From: a virus
Strand: one strand, 5' to 3'
Length of the DNA stretch: 29,694 nt
Virus record (IMG/VR): IMGVR_UViG_3300042541_003101
Location: 1-29,694 of that record
Shown here: positions 1 through 19,574 of the stretch, piece by piece
Position numbering within the stretch: position 1 is the stretch's first letter
Layout of the letters: each line of letters opens with the position of its first letter
Notes under the pieces: generated by a model
Database searches by the model: none
Seen by the model: only the letters and a program-made list of their open reading frames with translations
Told to the model about the DNA's origin: nothing
Program-made: the position numbers and the translations under genes

Positions 1-25
1 CAATGGTAATAGGCGTAGTGTACTG

Positions 26-249
26 ATGAACACCAACGAGCAGTTCGAGCAGTTCTAACTCTGCTGAGCCGCTACGAGCAGGAGCCCAAAGCGTTCATTC
101 CCAAGCGGCTCTCTACATTCTTCTCATCATTACTGTTACGTTCCTTCCTGAATAGTTATTGCGAGAGCTTTGTAGCCGCTGAAGAAGTGCGTAGTGACCA
201 AAAAGAACATAAAAATAACAATTTGCCATTTATAGAAGAGAAAGAATAA
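26..249 (+). pseudogene. possible frameshifted small ORF at the left end
   Basis: An ATG at 26 opens MNTNEQFEQF and stops at 56-58. The -1 frame then continues without a stop to 249, as LTLLSRYEQEPKAF and onward, ending in an acidic IEEKE tail. Read through one missing base, it gives a natural-looking protein of about 74 residues. No ATG or GTG start lies in the downstream frame. It could be a decayed gene, a sequencing error or a programmed slip. I do not recognise the family. Confidence 0.3.
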
Positions 250-266
250 GAAAAGATTGTAATGAA

Positions 267-286
267 TGACGCTCTGGGGAGCTACC
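267..286 (+). repeat. 20-bp dispersed repeat, copy 1
   Basis: TGACGCTCTGGGGAGCTACC occurs here and again, identical, at 13070-13089. Outside the 20 bases the two places share little apart from TTGT a few bases upstream. Both copies lie in non-coding DNA at edges of gene blocks. Role unknown; a protein-binding, packaging or recombination site is possible. Confidence 0.7.
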
Positions 287-463
287 TTTTTGTGACGAAC
301 GAAAGAAGAGCTATTGTTGTAAATAGTTGGAAAACGATTAAGCGTTATTTATTAGGAATTAGAGTATTTTGTTCGTGCCATCGTAGTGACCTCTCTTCTT
401 GCTTGTAAGCTTTCGATCGTTCGGTCAGTGCGCACTGGGGATGACGGGAAAACGAAAACTCGA

Positions 464-503
464 TAAAAAAATTGGCCCGTCTTGGGACAGGGGTATCAGG
501 GCC
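464..503 (-). terminator. possible hairpin terminator (minus strand)
   Basis: Read on the minus strand, GGGCC at 499-503 pairs with GGCCC at 474-478 around a long, partly self-complementary loop. An AA and a run of seven T (464-471 complement) follow. No gene is evident directly upstream of it on that strand, so its use is uncertain. Confidence 0.3.
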
Positions 504-559
504 CAACAGCACAAAACTCCCCGGTTACTGCTCCACAGCTTCACCTAATCCTACGCTTT

Positions 560-840
560 AACTATATACAACAGATCCCCTGGCATAACTATATATAGAT
601 AGCCCTTGAGATTAACTATATCCAACAGATCCCCTGGTATAGCTATCTACAGTAATCCTTGAATACAACTATATATAGTAATCCTCTGGTGCAACTATAT
701 ATAGACAATTCTACGATGCAACTATATATAGACAACTCTTGAGGTCAACTATATATAGTAGTTTCCTGATACAGTGATATATAGACAATCTTACAATAAA
801 ACTATATACAGGCAATCTTAAAAAAGATTTATATACAATC
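560..840. repeat. eleven tandem repeats of about 26.6 bp (iteron-like)
   Basis: The core AACTATATATAGA, or a close variant, begins at about 560, 587, 614, 641, 667, 693, 720, 747, 773, 800 and 826. Steps are 26-27 bp, roughly 2.5 helical turns. The core contains the palindrome CTATATATAG, and the spacers are variations on 'cAATCcTtgg'. No convincing gene covers the array. Such arrays typically act as replication iterons or as centromere-like partition sites, but no initiator or partition gene is in the window. Confidence 0.85.
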
Positions 841-867
841 TCCTGGTATTGCAATACAACGTTATCG

Positions 868-987
868 TAATATTGGCATAACGGTAGCGTTGTATCGTGA
901 TATTGCGATAACGGTACAACAGTAGCGTGATACTGCGATACTGGCACAACGGTAGTATTGTATTGCTATGATGGTACAACGATAGCG
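868..987. repeat. four tandem 30-bp repeats
   Basis: Units begin at 868, 898, 928 and 958 and resemble TGATATTGCGATAACGGTAC followed by AACAGTAGCG. Degenerate partial units flank them at 841-867 and after 988. The sequence differs from the 26.6-bp family next door. Both belong to the 1.2-kb non-coding left end, where I see no credible gene beyond the broken ORF at 26-249. Confidence 0.75.
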
Positions 988-1145
988 TTATGTAGTCATA
1001 AAAGCATAATTTCGTGGTTAATTTCCCCTCTATCTCACCGCCCCCAGCTATGCAGGCATCGCTCAAGAATTCGCCTCTCAGCCTGACGTCCCCATAGGAG
1101 CCTAGGAGTCCTGTCAACGGCGCCAAGCTACGATCCCCCAAGCAC

Positions 1146-1180
1146 CATAAAGAACCCCCCTAGGAGCGATCCTAGGAGGG
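1146..1180 (-). terminator. intrinsic terminator after the gene at 1205-1396
   Basis: On the minus strand CCCTCCTAGGA (1180-1170) pairs with TCCTAGGGGGG (1165-1155) across a GCGA/TCGC loop, with one mismatch. TTCTTTAT follows. It sits 25 bp past the stop of the small membrane-protein gene. Confidence 0.7.
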
Positions 1181-1204
1181 ACTGAGAGGCTAGTTGCGGA
1201 TGGA

Positions 1205-1396
1205 TTATCGGCCGTTGATTTTCAACAGGCAGGCGTCCAAGCCATGTCCGTCAAGGCGGCAACTCACGTAGTGGCGTTGATCTTCAGATACAAGACTAAC
1301 GGCAAACATTGTCAACAAGGGAGCGACAAACATGATCAGCAAGGGAGCGACAATAGAAGCGGCTGAACGGAGCGTAGAAAGGGCGGTGGTATTCAT
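1205..1396 (-). CDS. small membrane protein
   Basis: The 63-residue protein has one strongly hydrophobic stretch (about residues 13-37, SIVAPLLIMFVAPLLTMFAV). A short polar tail with two cysteines follows (YVSCRL ... LDACLL). The ATG at 1396 is preferred over upstream codons because a complete HLR1/-10 module ends about 40 nt upstream. Family not recognised. The layout (one membrane helix, then a short two-cysteine tail) resembles the protein at 6382-6561, which has the same type of promoter. It is probably an early host-interaction protein, by position only. Confidence 0.6.
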   Translation of the reverse strand: MNTTALSTLRSAASIVAPLLIMFVAPLLTMFAVSLVSEDQRHYVSCRLDGHGLDACLLKINGR

Positions 1397-1439
1397 GGTT
1401 TTTTGGAAGTGAGCGATCAAGGGCGTCGCTCTTGAAACA

Positions 1440-1491
1440 ACAATAAAGACGCACGGCCCCATCCGGGCCAATTATCACAAAACTTCACAAA
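1440..1491 (-). promoter_or_regulatory. HLR1-like box and -10 (module A)
   Basis: Read on the plus strand, ATCACA-AA-AC-TTCACA-AA at 1474-1491 resembles the HLR1 direct repeat bound by cyanobacterial RpaB. On the minus strand a TATTGT -10 (1445-1440) follows after a 28-nt gap, with the hairpin GGCCC/GGGCC (1455-1469) between. The gene start is about 37 nt beyond the predicted transcription start. This is one of six such modules. Confidence 0.55.
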
Positions 1492-1493
1492 GG

Positions 1494-1524
1494 GAGAAAC
1501 CGCCCCTAGAAATGGGAGGGGCGG
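1494..1524 (-). terminator. intrinsic terminator after the 1545-2798 operon
   Basis: Minus strand: CCGCCCCT (1524-1517) pairs perfectly with AGGGGCGG (1507-1500). TTTCTC follows. It lies about 20 bp beyond the stop at 1545 and directly upstream of the HLR1-like box of the next gene. Confidence 0.75.
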
Positions 1525-1544
1525 TAAAGGCTCCTAGGAGCGGC

Positions 1545-1742
1545 TCAGAACACTGGGAGCCCCAGTCTCTCGGCATGGTCGGCCGTACGCCGGATGCGGA
1601 CCATTAGCAGCCGTCCTAGGTGGACTCTGGCAACGTGGCAGTCCACCGCCCAGTACGAACCAAACTTACGCTTTGGCAATCGGACCCAAAGCATAGAAAT
1701 TACGGCGCTATTCTGCCAGGGCAAACGTATAATTGTTTTCAT
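1545..1742 (-). CDS. small basic hypothetical protein
   Basis: A 65-residue basic protein (MKTIIRLPWQ start; RIRRTADHAERLGLPVF end). The ATG at 1742 lies just past the stop of the preceding gene. A TTG at 1748 overlaps that stop and is the alternative start. Last gene of the minus-strand operon 2798-1545, followed by a perfect hairpin terminator. No family recognised. Confidence 0.5.
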   Translation of the reverse strand: MKTIIRLPWQNSAVISMLWVRLPKRKFGSYWAVDCHVARVHLGRLLMVRIRRTADHAERLGLPVF

Positions 1743-1744
1743 TG

Positions 1745-2359
1745 TCAAGCCGCCAGAGTAGGGTACTCGTTCAAGGTCTCAATTAGCCTCTCGCGCAGAC
1801 GGTCAAAGCCTTCATCCCATGGTGTCGAGTCTCGCCTCGCTGCGAAAATACAAAGCCCTGCATCCTGCAGCATAGTGACCCGCTCCGACACGCTTTCCTC
1901 CCATAGTTTCTCCACTCCCTTGCTCTCAAGCTCTGAAAGTTCGTCGTCGCTAATCAGCGGATAACACTCTAGACTTTCAATAATTTCTATGATGTCATCA
2001 CTGACAAAGCGAACGTCCAGCACCACTCCCCGACCGTTCCAGCCGCAGCCAATCTCCAGAACCCCACCGTAGGGGTCTGGCGTTGACTGGGGGTCCGTTA
2101 GCACTTGATAGTTCGCCAGGCCTGCCAGGCCGTTCCTGCTGTAGTCTGAGAATCCGCAGTATCCGGGAACGAACCCCAGCGACACGTCGTGCCAGCGCTC
2201 ACTTAGACATGTTGCTAGGTGTTCGTCCGGGCTTTGGTGCCAGTAGTGGCTGCAGTCTCTCTGAGGTTCACCGTCCCTGATCAATAGCCAGTGACCGTCG
2301 CATGATGCGAGGCGATCGATCCTAGTCTGAAGCGTAGGGGAAGCTTTGGCGGTTGTCAT
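1745..2359 (-). CDS. hypothetical protein, 204 residues
   Basis: Mostly soluble, rich in W, C and acidic residues. Segments such as VLEIGCGWNGRGVVLDVRFV and a C-terminal helical part (WDEGFDRLRERLIETLNEYP) look like a folded globular protein. The GCGWNGRG glycines resemble a nucleotide-binding loop, but I see no methyltransferase or kinase motif set. Its ATG overlaps the preceding stop (ATGA), so it is translationally coupled in the operon. Function unknown. Confidence 0.7.
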   Translation of the reverse strand: MTTAKASPTLQTRIDRLASCDGHWLLIRDGEPQRDCSHYWHQSPDEHLATCLSERWHDVSLGFVPGYCGFSDYSRNGLAGLANYQVLTDPQSTPDPYGGVLEIGCGWNGRGVVLDVRFVSDDIIEIIESLECYPLISDDELSELESKGVEKLWEESVSERVTMLQDAGLCIFAARRDSTPWDEGFDRLRERLIETLNEYPTLAA

Positions 2360-2535
2360 GGTTGAATTTCGGTGACGGTTTGAATGGTCCAGCCGGTCAA
2401 TACTCCTGCGTCTTGCAGCTCAGCAAGCGTTAACTGAGCCACTCTCTGGGCTTCCACGATGCCAGAGGCGACCACTTGCGACGGACCCATGGAAGGGCGG
2501 CCATGTTGCGTCAGAAACCAAACGTTGTACTTCAT
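2356..2535 (-). CDS. hypothetical small protein
   Basis: A 59-residue protein (MKYNVWFLTQHG start, GWTIQTVTEIQP end). The ATG at 2535 overlaps the upstream stop as TAATG, and its own stop overlaps the next ATG. Longer readings of this frame lie over the preceding gene and are less likely. Not recognised; operon member only. Confidence 0.6.
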   Translation of the reverse strand: MKYNVWFLTQHGRPSMGPSQVVASGIVEAQRVAQLTLAELQDAGVLTGWTIQTVTEIQP

Positions 2536-2798
2536 TAGAAACCGATGCAGTAAGTGTCGGCATCGATGCTGTGACAGGTGATCGCCTCCCATGGGATGCC
2601 GGCCTTCCCAGAGGCCTTGAGAGCAGCCGTGATGGGGCCGTCCAAGAAGGGGACAGAGGCCCGCCATACTGTGTCAGAGTCGCGGCGAATGGTAGCGATC
2701 CAGCGGCTACACTTTGAGTTGGTGGGCCCGTGATACTTGACGACAGCGCAAGGGCGGCTGCCGCTCATGTGGCCGCCGGTCCAGTGGACAGAATTCAT
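2535..2798 (-). CDS. hypothetical protein, up to 87 residues
   Basis: The protein contains AVVKYHGPTNSK, RWIATIRRDSDTVWRASV and a C-terminal CHSIDADTYCIGF, a compact beta-rich pattern of a kind I associate with small cyanophage proteins. The start may be 2798 (M N S V H) or the internal ATG at 2768 (MSGSRPC). It is the first gene of the operon running to 1545, directly after a hairpin terminator at 2834-2855. Function unknown. Confidence 0.65.
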   Translation of the reverse strand: MNSVHWTGGHMSGSRPCAVVKYHGPTNSKCSRWIATIRRDSDTVWRASVPFLDGPITAALKASGKAGIPWEAITCHSIDADTYCIGF

Positions 2799-2833
2799 TT
2801 CTTTTTGTGGGTAAGGTTAATTTAAGGAAAGAA

Positions 2834-2855
2834 GGGAGCATTAAAGAATGCTCCC
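2834..2855 (-). terminator. intrinsic terminator after the membrane HTH gene
   Basis: Perfect 9-bp stem GGGAGCATT/AATGCTCCC with a 4-nt loop. On the minus strand it is followed by TTCTTTCC. It begins 8 bp past the stop of the gene at 2863-3051. Confidence 0.8.
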
Positions 2856-2862
2856 TAAATTG

Positions 2863-3051
2863 TCAGGCCAGCGCCATCCTCACTCTGTAACGGGTGATGT
2901 TTAATTTTTCAGCGATTGCAGTCTGAGATTTGCCGGAACGCTTCATTCTTCTGATGCGTTGTTCCTGACTCTGCGTCAGCACGTCGATCAAAGCGAAAAC
3001 AAACAGCAAGGGAATAAAAAGCTTCCAAACGAGAATGAGAACCGTTGTCAT
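2863..3051 (-). CDS. membrane-anchored helix-turn-helix protein
   Basis: 62 residues. Residues 2-24 (TVLILVWKLFIPLLFVFALI) form one membrane helix, followed by EQRIRRMKRSGKSQTAIAEK and LNITRYRVRMALA. The latter is a clear helix-turn-helix of the resolvase/Hin type (SGKSQTAIAEKLNITRYRVR). Similar membrane-tethered HTH proteins are, to my recollection, found in marine Synechococcus and its phages. The ATG at 3051 fits the promoter module that ends about 38 nt upstream. It stands alone between a terminator and the richest regulatory region of the window, so a regulatory role is a fair inference. The target is unknown. Confidence 0.75.
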   Translation of the reverse strand: MTTVLILVWKLFIPLLFVFALIDVLTQSQEQRIRRMKRSGKSQTAIAEKLNITRYRVRMALA

Positions 3052-3095
3052 GGTGGGAAAATCAGAGGAACACAGGCATCTCTGTCTGCCCACCA

Positions 3096-3158
3096 ACAAT
3101 AGGCGCCATGAGCCCCCCGGTCGGGTCAAACCGCCGAATGTTCACATTTCGTTACAAA
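3096..3158 (-). promoter_or_regulatory. HLR1-like box and -10 (module F)
   Basis: TTCACATTTCGTTACAAA at 3141-3158 (plus strand) matches the HLR1 pattern closely: T(T/C)ACA, two W, two N, GTTACA, AA. A minus-strand TATTGT lies at 3101-3096, leaving 39 nt between, about one helical turn more than in the other modules. The membrane HTH gene starts about 38 nt further on. Confidence 0.6.
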
Positions 3159-3168
3159 GCGCCCGCAT

Positions 3169-3272
3169 GGCGGGGAAGAATGAGAATGAGAATCATTCTC
3201 GCTTTGGGGCGGGGAAGAATGAGAATGAGAATCATTCTCGGACTAGGATAGGTGAGAATGAGAATTATTCTC
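3169..3272. promoter_or_regulatory. three Fur-box-like operators
   Basis: GAGAATGAGAATCATTCTC occurs at 3182-3200 and 3221-3239, and GAGAATGAGAATTATTCTC at 3254-3272. The layout is the classical 6-6-1-6 Fur box (GATAAT GATAAT C ATTATC), with a purine change in each hexamer. The first two sit in an identical 33-bp direct repeat (3169-3201 and 3208-3240). A weaker copy is at 3297-3315. They lie upstream of the HLR1-like promoter of the membrane HTH gene. Confidence 0.65.
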
Positions 3273-3391
3273 GGCCGCCCAAGGGAAGCAAGAAACAAAA
3301 ATAAGAACCATTCTCAGCCTCCTACACTTACAACAAAAACAAAAAAATAATTACATTAAAAAGATAAAATCTCCCAAAAACGAGACTATAT

Positions 3392-3560
3392 ACCGCAAAC
3401 TGTCCAGTTCAAAATTTTTACCGCTTTCCGGCAAGCCCCTTTACCGCTTTCTGGCAAGTCCCCTTATACCGCGTTTTAGTAAGTTCTTTCTTTTTCCTTA
3501 ACTGAATCTCTTTTACTATTTTCAGCCAGCATTTTATACCGTATTTTGGCAAGTTCTTAA
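3392..3560. repeat. five degenerate direct repeats, TTATACCGCTTTTTGGCAAG-like
   Basis: The ACCG cores begin at 3392, 3420, 3443, 3468 and 3538. Four copies carry T(T/A)ACCGCTTTCYGGCAAG or ATACCGYRTTTTRGYAAG. The region 3300-3600 is AT-rich, holds no credible gene, and continues the Fur-like region. Iteron or operator cluster; function unknown. Confidence 0.6.
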
Positions 3561-3581
3561 GGGAAAGTTTTTAACATCATA

Positions 3582-3701
3582 ATGAAAATACAAGAAGAAA
3601 GAAAACAAGAAGCCAAGATAATGGTACGGCAAACGCTTCTTTCCCATCGGTCGTATAACCTCGAAATTTATATGCAGACAACAATGTCCATAACTCTTTG
3701 A
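3582..3701 (+). CDS. possible 39-residue plus-strand peptide
   Basis: ATG at 3582 gives MKIQEERKQEAKIMVRQTLL and ends in TTMSITL at the TGA 3699-3701. The start is highly charged and helical. It would be the only plus-strand gene in this arm and would lie downstream of the direct repeats. There is no clear ribosome-binding site. Low confidence. Confidence 0.25.
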   Translation: MKIQEERKQEAKIMVRQTLLSHRSYNLEIYMQTTMSITL

Positions 3702-3713
3702 CAAAGTTAGACA

Positions 3714-3962
3714 TCACCAGCCTCCATCATTGATAAGGGTCCATTCAGGCTCATAATCGTCTAGCCAGTTCATTTGATCAACCTCTCGCTTTGGCCACTC
3801 GGAGCGTGCCATTTCGATGATGGCTTCACACAAGCCAGGCCGATAGGCTTCTGGCTCGTTGCGAGTGGCATCATCCACGATGGCATCTTCAACAATTGCA
3901 TGTACTTTGATGCTTTCCAGCTCTTCATCGTACATCCACCATTCAATAGAAAGAACTGTCAC
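3714..3962 (-). CDS. hypothetical acidic protein
   Basis: 82 residues, acidic (VEDAIVDDATRNEPEAYRPG; C-terminal WLDDYEPEWTLINDGGW). A GTG start at 3962 overlaps the TGA of the upstream gene (GTGA). This is preferred over the longer reading from 4043, which would overlap the neighbour by 85 nt. Last gene of the minus-strand operon 4673-3714. Not recognised. Confidence 0.65.
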   Translation of the reverse strand: MTVLSIEWWMYDEELESIKVHAIVEDAIVDDATRNEPEAYRPGLCEAIIEMARSEWPKREVDQMNWLDDYEPEWTLINDGGW

Positions 3963-4261
3963 TTGAGAAGCTCCAGGATAGTTGCGAAATGCTTTGGTGA
4001 CCGTCCAGGCTCGCGCTTGAGAACGTAGCAGGCACTGGGCCATTCCCAGCCTCCTTCACCATCAGGCTCGGGCTCTGTGTCATTCTCCCAAATGCCTTTG
4101 CAAACATCACCATGAAACACACCAATTAGATCTTCCCCATCGTCCATTGCAAGGCGACAATGGAAAAGAATGTCCTTGGTTGAAGCTGCCTGATATTTCA
4201 TCACAGTTGGAGGAAAGTACGGGCCGTTAGCTTTGTAAGTACGAACAGTGGTGAGAGTCAT
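3959..4261 (-). CDS. hypothetical protein, 100 residues
   Basis: Begins MTLTTVRTYKANGPYFPPTV and contains ILFHCRLAMDDGEDLIGVFH, then an acidic glycine-rich stretch (EPEPDGEGGWEWP). The ATG overlaps the stop of the MT-A70 remnant (ATGA) and its stop overlaps the next GTG. A translationally coupled operon member of unknown function. Confidence 0.7.
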   Translation of the reverse strand: MTLTTVRTYKANGPYFPPTVMKYQAASTKDILFHCRLAMDDGEDLIGVFHGDVCKGIWENDTEPEPDGEGGWEWPSACYVLKREPGRSPKHFATILELLK

Positions 4262-4431
4262 GATTTAGGAAATTTGTCAAGTTGATTGCCGAAGCATTGC
4301 CAGCCACTACGCTGACGGCGTGCGAAGAATTCTGCCTTAGTTGCCTCAGGATACATCAGTTCAATTCTGTCCTGCACTTCTTCAGGCTTTTGGCTATGTT
4401 CCCCTTTAGGAGCAAATACAACTTGCCGCAT
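4258..4431 (-). CDS. stand-alone C-terminal remnant of an MT-A70 adenine methyltransferase
   Basis: 57 residues. The stretch HSQKPEEVQDRIELMYPEAT, then KAEFFARRQRSGWQCFGNQ, matches the C-terminal end of MT-A70-type N6-adenine methyltransferases (HSRKPxE ... LELFARRxRxGWxxWGNE). The upstream catalytic core with the DPPW motif is absent. The preceding frame encodes an unrelated alanine-rich protein. The ATG overlaps the upstream stop as TGATG and the stop overlaps the next ATG, so it still looks translated. It may be a decayed gene end or a repurposed module, and it cannot be an active methylase on its own. Confidence 0.7.
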   Translation of the reverse strand: MRQVVFAPKGEHSQKPEEVQDRIELMYPEATKAEFFARRQRSGWQCFGNQLDKFPKS

Positions 4432-4673
4432 CAGTCGCGGTGGCCTCCCATAAAGTTGCGGGCCTCCACCTCGGGAACAAGGAACTTTGGCCCCCCAGCC
4501 GCAACTCTGGCTTGCTGCTCAGCAAGCAGCTCTGCTTCCCTGGCTGCTCCAGCCGCTTGTTGCCCAGGGCTGAATTGATTAGGATCACGCGCTTCCTGCG
4601 CAGCCCAGAACTTAGCGGCTGCTGCATCTTGGCCGGCCTTGCGTTCGGCCCATGTGAGTCGTTTTTTTGCCAT
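4431..4673 (-). CDS. alanine-rich hypothetical protein
   Basis: 80 residues, strongly helical and rich in A, Q and E (AERKAGQDAAAAKFWAAQEA; AGAAREAELLAEQQARVAAG), with a basic N-terminus MAKKRLTW. It is the first gene of the operon 4673-3714 and starts about 38 nt past an HLR1-like module. Coiled-coil or DNA-binding roles are possible; nothing specific is visible. Confidence 0.6.
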   Translation of the reverse strand: MAKKRLTWAERKAGQDAAAAKFWAAQEARDPNQFSPGQQAAGAAREAELLAEQQARVAAGGPKFLVPEVEARNFMGGHRD

Positions 4674-4717
4674 GGTGTTGTCTCAGAGTGGTGGGAGCTC
4701 TCGCTCCCGGTGAATGA

Positions 4718-4770
4718 ACGATAAAAGCAGGAGGGGCCTTGGCAGGCCCCTTGTCACAAAACTCAACTCC
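4718..4770 (-). promoter_or_regulatory. HLR1-like box and -10 (module B, degenerate)
   Basis: GTCACA-AA-AC-TCAACT at 4753-4768 has a good first half and a weak second half. Minus-strand TATCGT at 4723-4718 is the likely -10, 29 nt away. The GGGGCC hairpin lies between, and the gene start is 38 nt past the predicted transcript start. The box overlaps the stop of the upstream gene at 4763. Confidence 0.4.
4733..4750 (-). terminator. hairpin terminator inside module B
   Basis: GGGGCC/GGCCCC stem with a 6-nt loop. On the minus strand TCCTGCTTTTATC follows. It would stop transcripts of the gene at 4763-4978 just before the next promoter's -10. Confidence 0.6.
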
Positions 4771-4978
4771 TGATGAAGCTTGTGCCGTCTTCAGCCACCC
4801 AATCAAGGGCGCTGCTGGAATCAGTCAACGCCCAGTAGCGACGGATGGCCGTGTGATGCGGCTTATCGCGATCGGTCAATGCCGACGCCAGCGGGCAGGC
4901 CCGAGCGTTGGAGAATGCGCCGCTGTAGAACCCTTCGCCTCTGTGGCGGGTTCCGATTGCCATGCCCATGCAGATCAT
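4763..4978 (-). CDS. hypothetical protein, 71 residues
   Basis: Begins MICMGMAIGTRHRGEGFYSG and ends YWALTDSSSALDWVAEDGTS-FIRS. The ATG at 4978 is chosen because it lies 35 nt beyond the predicted start point of HLR1 module C, as in the sister genes. The frame opens further to 5023. Aromatic, soluble, not recognised. Flanked by hairpin terminators on both sides, so it is probably monocistronic. Confidence 0.55.
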   Translation of the reverse strand: MICMGMAIGTRHRGEGFYSGAFSNARACPLASALTDRDKPHHTAIRRYWALTDSSSALDWVAEDGTSFIRS

Positions 4979-5019
4979 GATTTTGAAGGGGGTTGTGGAC
5001 CTCTCGGCCCGTTGAAAGA

Positions 5020-9241: not shown

Positions 9242-9595
9242 TTACCGCTTTCTTGCGAGAGAGCCAACAGTGCCATATCCATATCCATAACCATCGTTGT
9301 TGCCATAGCCATAGCTATAACCATAGCCATAGCCATTGCCATCGCCATAGCCATAGCCATCGCCATAGCCATTGCCAGAGCTATAACCATGGCCATGGCT
9401 ATAACCATTGCCATCGCCATAGCCATCGCCATAGCCATTACCACGGCCGTTGCCATGGCCATTGCCATCGCCATCGCCATAGCCATAGCCATCGCCATAG
9501 CCATCGCCATTGCCATTGCCATGGCCATTGCCATCGCCACAACCATTGCCATGGCCATTGCCAATTGGATACGAAAGAGCCATCACAGCCCCCAA
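9242..9595 (-). CDS. glycine-rich repeat protein encoded by a hexanucleotide array
   Basis: 117 residues. After MGAVMALSYPI, about 95 residues alternate glycine with N, Y, D, H or S (GDGYGDGYGYGDGNG and similar), ending in GTVGSLARKR. The DNA is a GCCATN array from about 9270 to 9570. All six frames are open there, but this one is favoured. Its ATG overlaps the stop of the upstream gene, a strong terminator follows, and both neighbours share the strand. The low-complexity chain may be a flexible linker or adhesive; function unknown. Confidence 0.65.
   Translation of the reverse strand: MGAVMALSYPIGNGHGNGCGDGNGHGNGNGDGYGDGYGYGDGDGNGHGNGRGNGYGDGYGDGNGYSHGHGYSSGNGYGDGYGYGDGNGYGYGYSYGYGNNDGYGYGYGTVGSLARKR
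9270..9570. repeat. hexanucleotide (GCCATN) repeat array
   Basis: About fifty units of GCCAT followed by A, C, T or G run almost without interruption. Breaks include GCCAGAGCTATAACC near 9374. The array is coding on the minus strand (Gly-X dipeptides). Units are diverged enough that it is not a young slippage tract, but length change is likely. Confidence 0.85.
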
Positions 9596-15357: not shown

Positions 15358-15858
15358 ATGACCGACCTTCCTTCTGCCGATTTCTTGAAGCAATATATTG
15401 AACTTGATCCAGGCTCCCCTAGTGGCATTCGTTGGCTTGCTAAATCAATCAATAAATCTAACTCTAATCCCGGAAAAGCGGCTGGATGTAAAAACAAACA
15501 AGGATACTTTAGGCTTGAGCTTTTAGGCAAGAGCTATCCCTGCCATCGACTGGTCTTAATTATGAACGGGGTCTTGCCGCAGCCGGGCTGCACTGAAGTT
15601 GATCATATTGACCGAGATCCATCAAATAACAGCCTTTCCAATCTGAGGTGGGTCAGTCGGAGCTTGAATAACAAAAACAAGATAGTATGCGGAGCCGTGC
15701 CATTCGTCTATGTGCATAAACGCCGTCAACGGTTTGTTGCTAGGTACAAGCATCCGACTGCATTAGTTTCCATACAAGTAGGATCTTACGGGGATCCCTA
15801 CAAAGCGCACTGCGCAGCATTGGCTCACCGCCTACAAAATCATTGGATTGCATCATGA
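15358..15858 (+). CDS. HNH homing-type endonuclease
   Basis: 166 residues. The core YPCHRLVLIMNG (about 58-70), EVDHIDRDPSNNSLSNLRWV and SRSLNNKNK is the HNH_3 type. H and D of the VDH motif and the N of NN-x2-L-x-NLR are all present. The C-terminus (FVARYKHP ... GSYGDPYKAHCAALAHR) resembles an AP2-like DNA-binding half. Such genes usually move as free-standing homing elements; this one interrupts a cassette of tiny genes. The ATG at 15358 has no clear ribosome-binding site. Confidence 0.9.
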   Translation: MTDLPSADFLKQYIELDPGSPSGIRWLAKSINKSNSNPGKAAGCKNKQGYFRLELLGKSYPCHRLVLIMNGVLPQPGCTEVDHIDRDPSNNSLSNLRWVSRSLNNKNKIVCGAVPFVYVHKRRQRFVARYKHPTALVSIQVGSYGDPYKAHCAALAHRLQNHWIAS

Positions 15859-16580: not shown

Positions 16581-19574
16581 TTAAAAGAATTCATCGTCAC
16601 TATTGGCTTCTGCAATGGGGAAATCTTCAATTTCCCTTGGCACGTACTCCCAAGAATGGTAAAGCCTCACTTTTTCATTGTTAGGGCCATTCTGAAAGCT
16701 GCTAGTGATCAAGCCTTGTCTTCTCGCCACTTCTAGCATCTTGCTCGCTGACGCCACATCCCAGTTACTGGACAGTGCAGCCACCTGCTGCCTACTGAGA
16801 CGTTCAGTTTTGCGCATGTTCACAGTATTCACCACTTGATCAAGCTCTTCAGAACTGCCACCAATGGGGCCAGCATATCTCCAACCATAGTTCAAAGTAT
16901 CACGCTGCAAATTATGCTTACCAGTTAGGCCGCTTCTGCTCTTCAGCCACTCAAAAACAAATTGATTTGGGTCGTGACTGTTCTCTGGGCGAGTGAGCTT
17001 AACCACTTCACTGACGTTATCAACGAAGCTGGTTGAATCTCTCAATCCTCCACTTTTATTTAAGTGGTGCAGAATGGCAATACTTACTTTGTACTTATTA
17101 GCAATGTCTCTTAGCCCATAGATTACATCGCCAGCATTGCTTCGTACCAAGTCCACTTCCATGCCTGCCAAGCAAGCCGTCAACGAGTCAATGGCTACGA
17201 ACACTGGACGATGCTTCCTGACATACTCCTCCAGTTGCTTCATGTGGCCGAACCTCCAGTTCTCCCAGAATGCAATGGTGCCAGGCTCCAGGCCAGCATC
17301 TTGAAAACCAATCACGCCAAGCTTCTCGCTGGTATCCACCAATGGTTCATCACTTTGAATGATGAGGCTTTTGCCTTTCATACAGCGTCTGCCACTCCAT
17401 GATTGACCAAGAGCAATGTTCAGCGCCCAGTTGTAAATCAATGTGCTGTTATGGGTGACGATAAAATCATTCGTGACATACGTGTGAGACGGATGGTCAA
17501 CCATGATGCACTGAGCATCGTCGTCTCCAAGATATTCAACAGAGTCGATCATCCGAGAAGGTTGATATCTAGTGCGGGCGATTTCCTTCTCCGCTTTTGC
17601 GTCCATCCAGAAACTCTTGAAACCATTGGGTATTGAAATAAACACACGATAACTGTCGCGTCCTGTCTTGCGTTCGCCTTTGTATTCAAACCACGGCTTA
17701 CGAACAGACCTGCTGCACTTGCCGCCTAGGGATTGAACAATAAAAACCACTGCGTCTGCTAGGTCTTTCGATGACGAGTCAAACGTAGTTGAATGTCCAT
17801 CCGTGGTTCCATCAGTATCCATGAGGCCATGCAGGAGGTCTAGTCTCTGCTGAACAGATGCAAATAAATACTCCTCTGGCACAAACTTCTCCCATGACCT
17901 GCAGCCCCAAAGGCCCATCCCCCTGAGAATATTGCGCATACCATTGCGTGATCCGTTCTCAGTGATCGAATAAGTTTTGCAGCTAATGCGATCTTCTTTC
18001 ATAGACAGAGAGTGCTTCTCTTTCAAGCGTGCCCAGAACTTGTCGGCAATTTCGTCATCCGAAATAGTGATATCAAAGTTACCAGCAAGACACCCGTCCC
18101 CAAGTAGCACGCCGAGAACGTATGGATCAATTGGCAACTCTTGCTTCTCAAATTGGACAGGTCCAACCATGGGAATGGAATGGTTCCTATCTTTGCGTCC
18201 ATTGCCCTTGTGCAAGTGCAGAGTTTCGCGGATTTCCTTCAGCGAACGCACTGTCCAATCCTTTTTGCGATCACGTTGGTTTTGATTTTTGGTAAGCCAC
18301 AGGTGCTCATCACAGCAATGGGTGGTAGCGCCATCGCTCATTTTCACCTGAAAAATTGGTTTTTTACCTTGGGGAAATACTCCAGTGACTGTGGTCACAG
18401 AACCGTCACCAGCGATTACCTTGTCACCAACGCAAAGCTCGCCCATGAACTTCCAGCCAGTAGGAGTAAGAACTTTCGCCCATAAAGGCTGCGCCTTACC
18501 AGTTCCTCCTGATGCTGCCAATAGCATCACGCTGCCCAGTGGAATGATTCCTGCAATCAGCCATTCCCTGCATTGCTCTGAGTTGGCGATGGTCAAAGCA
18601 TCAATGGTTTCAATTTCTTCTTTACCATAAATGCGATGCTTCGCTTCTTCAACCACCCGGTCAATTGACTGCTGGTTCATCTTCAAGCCATGCTGCTCTA
18701 GCCATGCAGTAGTCTCAAAGGCCACGCGAGAATCATTGGCATACAGACCAACAAAGCCTTCAACTGTGGAGATGATCTCCTCATAGGAGGGCTTACCATC
18801 TCGCCCTTGATGACGATTCTTGCCAATGGAAGCAAGTAAATCGTCTTTAGTGGCGCCTTCTTCAATGTAATCTGCTATGTCATAACCATTGCCAGGAGGA
18901 AGATTGTCCCATTCCCAACTGCGTGGATCAGCATATAGCCATTGTGCGCCTGGATTATCAGAAGCAACTTCTGCCATGAATGCCACGCCATGCTGATCAC
19001 GATCAGGGCAAAGAACAGTTTGAATGTTTCTGAATAAGTTGGAATAGTCTCCATTGGTGCGATACTGCTTGCTTCCCCCAAGGAAAGTAACAGCAGGGAG
19101 ATCAATGGCCCACATCGACTGACAGGTTAGTTCCCCTTCAACAATGAACACTGGCAGGCCAGTTTTTGCGCTTTCAGCAATAGCTTCGTGATACTTGTAA
19201 GGCAGTACGCCTGCTCTAACTTCCTGTAACTGTGCCTTGTGATTGGCATTATCAGCAATGGTGGGAAATTCCTGCCAGATTTTCTTGCTGCCCGAGTGGT
19301 CGTCACGATGCACCCGCACCACTTCGCTGCCAGCGGCGTTCTTGTAGTTGAACTCATACCTTCCAGGCTCCCTGGAGGGCTTCTCCCATCGCATCAATGG
19401 GGCCAAGGCGTCTCTGATTTCGGCTCTGTGATCAGGGCTGGGGTCATGCCAACAGTTGTAGCCACCAGTGTTTTTGTTGATAGTAAAGTCATTACCATCG
19501 CAGGCAGGGCAGATATACTTTCCATCCTTACTGGGCTCTAGAGCCTCCAAATGATCTAAAATCGAAAACGTCAC
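16581..19574 (-). CDS. primase-helicase (zinc finger, TOPRIM, RecA-like) interrupted by an intein
   Basis: 997 residues, about 648 after splicing. A CHC2-like zinc finger (C22, C25, C41, H43) is followed by TOPRIM (E146-G-E; D191-R-D193). The RecA-like AAA_25/RepA-type helicase core has Walker A GGTGK(360) joined to S710-T, Walker B VFVAIDS (D796) and HHLNKSGG. The C-terminus looks like a winged helix (RQQVAALSSNWDVASASKML). It would prime and unwind DNA at the phage fork. The GTG start at 19574 is taken because no ATG is near and no ribosome-binding site is visible. First gene of its operon, diverging from the gene at 19717. Confidence 0.9.
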   Translation of the reverse strand: MTFSILDHLEALEPSKDGKYICPACDGNDFTINKNTGGYNCWHDPSPDHRAEIRDALAPLMRWEKPSREPGRYEFNYKNAAGSEVVRVHRDDHSGSKKIWQEFPTIADNANHKAQLQEVRAGVLPYKYHEAIAESAKTGLPVFIVEGELTCQSMWAIDLPAVTFLGGSKQYRTNGDYSNLFRNIQTVLCPDRDQHGVAFMAEVASDNPGAQWLYADPRSWEWDNLPPGNGYDIADYIEEGATKDDLLASIGKNRHQGRDGKPSYEEIISTVEGFVGLYANDSRVAFETTAWLEQHGLKMNQQSIDRVVEEAKHRIYGKEEIETIDALTIANSEQCREWLIAGIIPLGSVMLLAASGGTGKAQPLWAKVLTPTGWKFMGELCVGDKVIAGDGSVTTVTGVFPQGKKPIFQVKMSDGATTHCCDEHLWLTKNQNQRDRKKDWTVRSLKEIRETLHLHKGNGRKDRNHSIPMVGPVQFEKQELPIDPYVLGVLLGDGCLAGNFDITISDDEIADKFWARLKEKHSLSMKEDRISCKTYSITENGSRNGMRNILRGMGLWGCRSWEKFVPEEYLFASVQQRLDLLHGLMDTDGTTDGHSTTFDSSSKDLADAVVFIVQSLGGKCSRSVRKPWFEYKGERKTGRDSYRVFISIPNGFKSFWMDAKAEKEIARTRYQPSRMIDSVEYLGDDDAQCIMVDHPSHTYVTNDFIVTHNSTLIYNWALNIALGQSWSGRRCMKGKSLIIQSDEPLVDTSEKLGVIGFQDAGLEPGTIAFWENWRFGHMKQLEEYVRKHRPVFVAIDSLTACLAGMEVDLVRSNAGDVIYGLRDIANKYKVSIAILHHLNKSGGLRDSTSFVDNVSEVVKLTRPENSHDPNQFVFEWLKSRSGLTGKHNLQRDTLNYGWRYAGPIGGSSEELDQVVNTVNMRKTERLSRQQVAALSSNWDVASASKMLEVARRQGLITSSFQNGPNNEKVRLYHSWEYVPREIEDFPIAEANSDDEFF
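17448..18494 (-). other. class 3-type intein with LAGLIDADG endonuclease
   Basis: 349 residues (361-709 of the precursor), inserted between K and S of Walker A. It starts with Ala (AQPLWAKVLTPTGW) instead of Cys or Ser. It has Trp426 in block B (CCDEHLW), Cys689 in block F (AQCIMVDHPSHTYV) and Thr707 before the terminal His-Asn (VTHN), with Ser as +1. That W-C-T set with Ala1 is the class 3 signature. The dodecapeptides VLGVLLGDGC (about 487) and LLHGLMDTDG (about 580) mark a LAGLIDADG homing endonuclease. Confidence 0.85.

Follow-up and report, generated by a model that had tools for sequence, protein, structure and literature searches.

An AT-rich iteron-like array as a candidate replication origin module in an S-CBS4-like cyanosiphovirus

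A non-coding array of eleven short repeats (array 1, positions 560–838) is, in our assessment, probably an AT-rich iteron or unwinding module that is specific to its lineage and belongs to the origin from which an S-CBS4-like cyanosiphovirus replicates. The basis of this reading is a constrained repeat core, a spacing of 2.5 helical turns, the lowest duplex stability in the DNA analyzed, arrays of protein-binding sites at the same place in relatives, and minima of GC skew. Because array 1 lies where relatives hold other protein-site repeats, including boxes for host DnaA, a swapped-in part of an origin is its most likely identity. Against this stand the lack of any DnaA box near array 1 and of a recognizable initiator gene in the window.

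The window, by which we mean the whole stretch of DNA analyzed, is one entire linear IMG/VR record of 29,694 bases; it is a genome fragment from which about half of the genome is absent. Judged from its genes, the phage is an S-CBS4-like Synechococcus siphovirus (cyanosiphovirus). The exonuclease shares 56% identity with its counterpart in Synechococcus phage S-CBS4, and the gene order of the window (annealing protein, exonuclease, dCTP deaminase, ThyX, endolysin) is that of S-CBS4 in reverse. No tRNA was found in the window. The primase-helicase gene (16581–19574) carries an internal insert at about residues 353–715 that is intein-like, with a LAGLIDADG-like domain. A hexanucleotide array of GCCATA at 9272–9563, with about 49 copies and 76% matches, is also present in one relative, L104. 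More than 80 IMG/VR relatives made up the comparison set.

Structure of the array and constraint on its core

Each unit of array 1 consists of a 12-bp core, AACTATATATAG, and a spacer of 14–15 bp, and the period is 26–27 bp. Units start at 560, 587, 614, 641, 667, 693, 720, 747, 773, 800, and 827, giving steps of 27, 27, 27, 26, 26, 27, 27, 26, 27, and 27 bp, with a mean of 26.7 bp. Ten of the eleven match AACTATATATAG at three or fewer mismatches, and the remaining one, ATTTATATACAA, is a weak copy with four. Thus, the eleven repeats at about 26–27 bp described in an earlier note on this DNA are real, as ten good units and one weak one. Matches at three or fewer mismatches number 11 in this stretch, whereas 500 dinucleotide shuffles gave 2.0 on average and never more than 8, and only six plus-strand core matches of such quality occur outside array 1 in the 29.7 kb. 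The best single-lag self-match of the array is 0.47, whereas shuffles reach at most 0.40. The palindrome that had been ascribed to the repeats holds in part: the perfect form, CTATATATAG, is found in only five units (2, 5, 6, 7, and 8), and the left half is kept better than the right.

Conservation within the array is concentrated in the core. Mean pairwise identity between units is 83% over the 12-bp core and 43% over the spacer, where 29% is expected from composition, and a contrast of this size was reached by none of 20,000 column permutations. Since the core is far better conserved than the spacer, the core appears to be under constraint. At the same time, the above-chance identity of the spacers, and the fact that units 1 and 3 have most of their spacer in common, indicate that array 1 grew by tandem duplication. 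Even spacing alone is therefore insufficient proof that the spacing itself is selected, as had been claimed; conservation of the core is the better evidence of constraint.

The geometry that had been pointed out is borne out by the measured period, as 26.7 bp corresponds to 2.5 helical turns and places alternate sites on opposite faces of the helix. Array 1 has the tandem direct repeats with a conserved core that typify Rep_3 iteron origins and lacks their whole-turn, one-face spacing. Two other identities for the array were rejected. The open reading frames that overlap it are all spurious, which excludes coding DNA on both strands, and the degenerate repeats and partly homologous spacers exclude a CRISPR.

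The variable slot, its flanks, and its contents in relatives

Array 1 occupies part of a non-coding variable slot of 485 bp (534–1018) that lies between a conserved GTTACTGCTC (524–533) and a TTAATTTCCCC block. The rest is filled by array 2 (842–1000), which directly abuts array 1, differs from it in sequence, and has a 30-bp period with the palindrome-like AYAACGNTAGCGTTRT at about 877, 915, 945, and 975. In relatives, the slot measures roughly 60–200 bp. Its right end precedes a terminator-like hairpin at 1155–1180, a predicted intrinsic terminator on the minus strand that closes the leftward gene block right of the slot, and on the other side a further minus-strand terminator is predicted at 476–491, between the slot and the next gene. 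The first convincing gene to the right (1745–2359, minus strand) encodes 204 residues with a weak match to phrog_3906, a family of unknown function. It has a homologue in L115/L151 at 63% DNA identity; searched by pattern, the slot-side gene recovered no relatives. The slot-adjacent gene has been swapped repeatedly among GP88 (PF17338), DUF7227, and DUF7178 in L110, L118, L127, L129, and L112; these are families of unknown function, in place of which the window has its phrog_3906-like gene.

Left of the slot, part of positions 1–500 can be aligned with the DNA that precedes the ribonucleotide reductase (RNR) gene in relatives. A conserved non-coding element (CNE, 375–441) is present upstream of RNR in 28 relatives besides the window and has inverted repeat arms, TGACC (387–391) and GGTCA (423–427), and a palindrome, AGTGCGCACT. 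The arms vary and are always matched: among 21 distinct aligned sequences there are five arm pairs (TGACC/GGTCA, TGCGC/GCGCA, TGTCC/GGACA, TGAAC/GTTCA, and CGACC/GGTCG) with no mispair and 100% of cells paired, and the covariation score is 0.51 compared with 0.11 in shuffles. The stability of the predicted hairpin is not unusual, so the evidence for a hairpin lies in covariation and not in folding energy. As all arm pairs are Watson–Crick, a DNA hairpin, an RNA hairpin, and coevolving half-sites of a dimer are equally compatible with them, and from these alignments the CNE would be a conserved structured or dimer-bound element. An Rfam search of positions 1–4000 returned one chance snoRNA match only, and the CNE had no Rfam match. 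A second conserved element, anchor 1 (64–123), contains an 8-bp inverted repeat, GAGCCGCT...AGCGGCTC, and likewise aligns upstream of the relatives' RNR gene. The idea that the left end of the window is protein-coding was dropped because what is conserved in anchor 1 is an inverted repeat and not a reading frame.

The slot is filled differently in different phages. L129, the closest relative recovered, matches the window at 92% identity over positions 1–533 but lacks both arrays and carries different DNA in the slot; its homology to the window resumes at 1098–1192, with a similar hairpin at the position equivalent to the 1155–1180 terminator. None of the relatives examined has the array 1 motif in its slot. 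Conservation thus lends no support to the motif itself. Absence from close relatives had been named in the earlier note as grounds for abandoning its proposal; the array sequence is indeed missing from L129, but the site is conserved and holds other DNA. The unit-specific string CAACAGATCCCCTGGNATA occurs in no other IMG/VR contig, and BLASTN searches of array 1 and its region against phage and plasmid collections found no match. Two-copy pattern searches of genomes and viral contigs gave scattered matches only; none formed a similar array in GC-balanced DNA, and the nearest case, L293, is a contig of 31% GC.

What relatives hold instead are other sites. In L107, L127, and L153, the slot contains two to five tandem boxes of the TTTTCCACA type, 11–12 bp apart, at CNE+183 to CNE+304; array 1 starts at CNE+158. 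Cyanobacterial DnaA boxes have the sequence TTTTCCACA (PMC4674748), and G008, which is the L127 record, contains just three exact copies of it in 68,754 bp, all of them in the slot. These tandem boxes suggest that the three phages may use host DnaA. No such cluster is present in the window, which has no box near the slot and one degenerate match at 15711. In many other relatives, palindromes of the form GATNAGNNNTNCTNATC occur at 2.0 per kb in the slot compared with 0.3 elsewhere. Relatives' slots contain one to four palindromic, operator-like sites. L136 and L137 both have the array 2 motif AYAACGNTAGCGTTRT in their slots. In L097 (positions 1–5000, record G005), the contig passes at the slot into DNA of 68–79% GC, probably because the assembly is chimeric or the DNA is of foreign origin.

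Candidate origin signals and rival explanations

Easily melted AT-rich DNA is a generic feature of phage origins, and nearest-neighbor stability is lower in array 1 than in any other 100-, 250-, or 300-bp duplex stretch of the 29.7-kb window. Because the window is a fragment, GC skew was read from near-complete relatives. Among the six that have the CNE or anchor, four place the minimum of detrended cumulative skew at the homologous locus. In G008 it coincides with the CNE, whereas G015 (where the amplitude is weak, p 0.09), G016, and G017 have it no more than 200 bp from anchor 1. S-CBS4, which has no CNE, has its minimum 441 bp upstream of RNR. The minimum lies 2.5–3.1 kb from RNR in G024 and G025, and G012 and G021 depart from the pattern with a minimum 7–8 kb away. 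These genomes are related to each other, so the skew evidence is suggestive and does not amount to independent replication.

A second repeat competes with array 1 for the role of initiator site. An iteron-like repeat of 21–23 bp, TTTACCGCTTTCCGGCAAGTCCCC, is found at 3417–3484 of the window, with more copies near 3389 and 3536, and a related core (TAGCCGG or AGCAAGTCC) occurs in L107, L114, L118, L127, L128, L135, L146, L153, and L155. In many relatives, it lies 2–3 kb from the CNE, usually with another array, variable and built of 16–50-bp units, 100–400 bp away; in the window, this neighbor is a 39-bp repeat at 3173–3265. Its conservation in more relatives than array 1 counts against array 1 as the origin. 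On these sequence comparisons, the actual initiator site could be the 21–23-bp repeat, in which case the slot would be accessory or regulatory.

It is useful to contrast array 1 with known systems. Like the Rep_3 iteron origins of R6K, pPS10, and F, it combines conserved-core direct repeats, AT-rich DNA, and a non-coding location; unlike them, it has no Rep_3 gene to go with it, and the repeat itself is the AT-rich DNA. Rep_3-type iterons are spaced about 20–22 bp apart, compared with 26.7 bp here. With lambda-type origins, in which O-protein iterons adjoin AT-rich DNA, it shares repeated putative initiator sites and easily melted DNA, and, like lambda-type phages, this group would rely on host polymerase, given that the S-CBS4 annotation has no polymerase gene. 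However, a lambda-type origin has four initiator sites and array 1 eleven, array 1 lies outside any initiator gene, and no O-like gene was recognized. A short-repeat array also recalls the ParR/parC and TubR/tubC centromeres, but their partner genes were not found, the period differs, and array 1 varies between close relatives, which makes a centromere unlikely. The tandem TTTTCCACA boxes in the slots of L107, L127, and L153 resemble a cyanobacterial oriC (PMC4674748), whereas the window has no boxes near the slot and AACTATATATAG bears no relation to such a box.

The chief rival, to which we give a rather low probability, is that array 1 is an operator array through which a phage or host regulator controls a minus-strand promoter for the RNR block and the genes beyond, its sites being just downstream of the 1155–1180 terminator. 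Leftward genes do lie on both sides of the slot, minus-strand promoter-like sites occur within array 1 (TTGACC-16-TATAGT, 748–721), and the operator-like palindromes in relatives' slots would fit. However, the promoter-like sites number 8 compared with 4.4 (SD 2.6) expected in shuffles, several hundred base pairs and the predicted terminator at 476–491 intervene before the next gene, and the DnaA boxes and skew minima at the locus would be left unexplained. A functionless minisatellite, arisen by recent tandem duplication within a hypervariable intergenic slot, is improbable. Neutral decay should strike core and spacer equally, which is not the pattern seen, and relatives hold recognizable sites in the slot; these observations weigh against a history otherwise suited by the spacers common to units 1 and 3, the absence of array 1 from L129, and the abundance of unrelated tandem arrays further along the gene-poor region in relatives.

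The earlier note had offered an iteron origin or a centromere. The origin stands as a reading by position, given the DnaA boxes and skew minima of relatives, and by low duplex stability; the centromere finds no support. A partition site of the ParR, TubR, or ParB type in a phage living as a plasmid is very improbable, even though evenly spaced non-coding repeats are parC- or tubC-like in outline, since the array is not conserved and no ParA-type ATPase, ParB, or TubZ was found in searches whose positive controls matched. These searches and that for Rep_3, in which the control likewise matched, covered the window, the near-identical contig G001, S-CBS4, and eight near-complete IMG/VR relatives. 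The remark that the window has no matching protein gene is therefore correct for these four families, and the suggestion of a segregating phage is not supported. For Rep_3 (PF01051), as for the partition families, the lack of a match in window or relatives is to be read with about half of the window phage's genome outside the record. A ParM search matched nowhere at all and carries no weight either way.

A possible modular origin

If array 1 is an origin module, an initiator, phage-encoded or host, would bind its cores, which face opposite sides of the helix in turn, and bend or melt the TATATATA tracts. The phage primase-helicase would then be loaded onto the melted DNA, and a host polymerase would extend; a host enzyme is assumed because the S-CBS4 annotation lists no DNA polymerase. 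The window phage would have replaced a DnaA-box version of the slot with sites of its own.

More broadly, S-CBS4-like cyanophages may possess a modular origin in which a fixed, hairpin-like element is paired with an exchangeable slot for initiator sites, an idea that we put forward only tentatively. Among the papers searched, we found none in which a replication origin is mapped for S-CBS4-like cyanosiphoviruses or in which cyanophages are connected with DnaA boxes. Comparing relatives points to one testable locus, which carries boxes for host DnaA in some members and, in another, an iteron array of its own. If the modular origin is true, near-identical phages swap DnaA boxes, palindromes, or AT-rich iterons, and origin specificity changes fast, perhaps as an escape from competition or host control. 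Phage origins would then join tail fibers and defense genes as quickly evolving modules.
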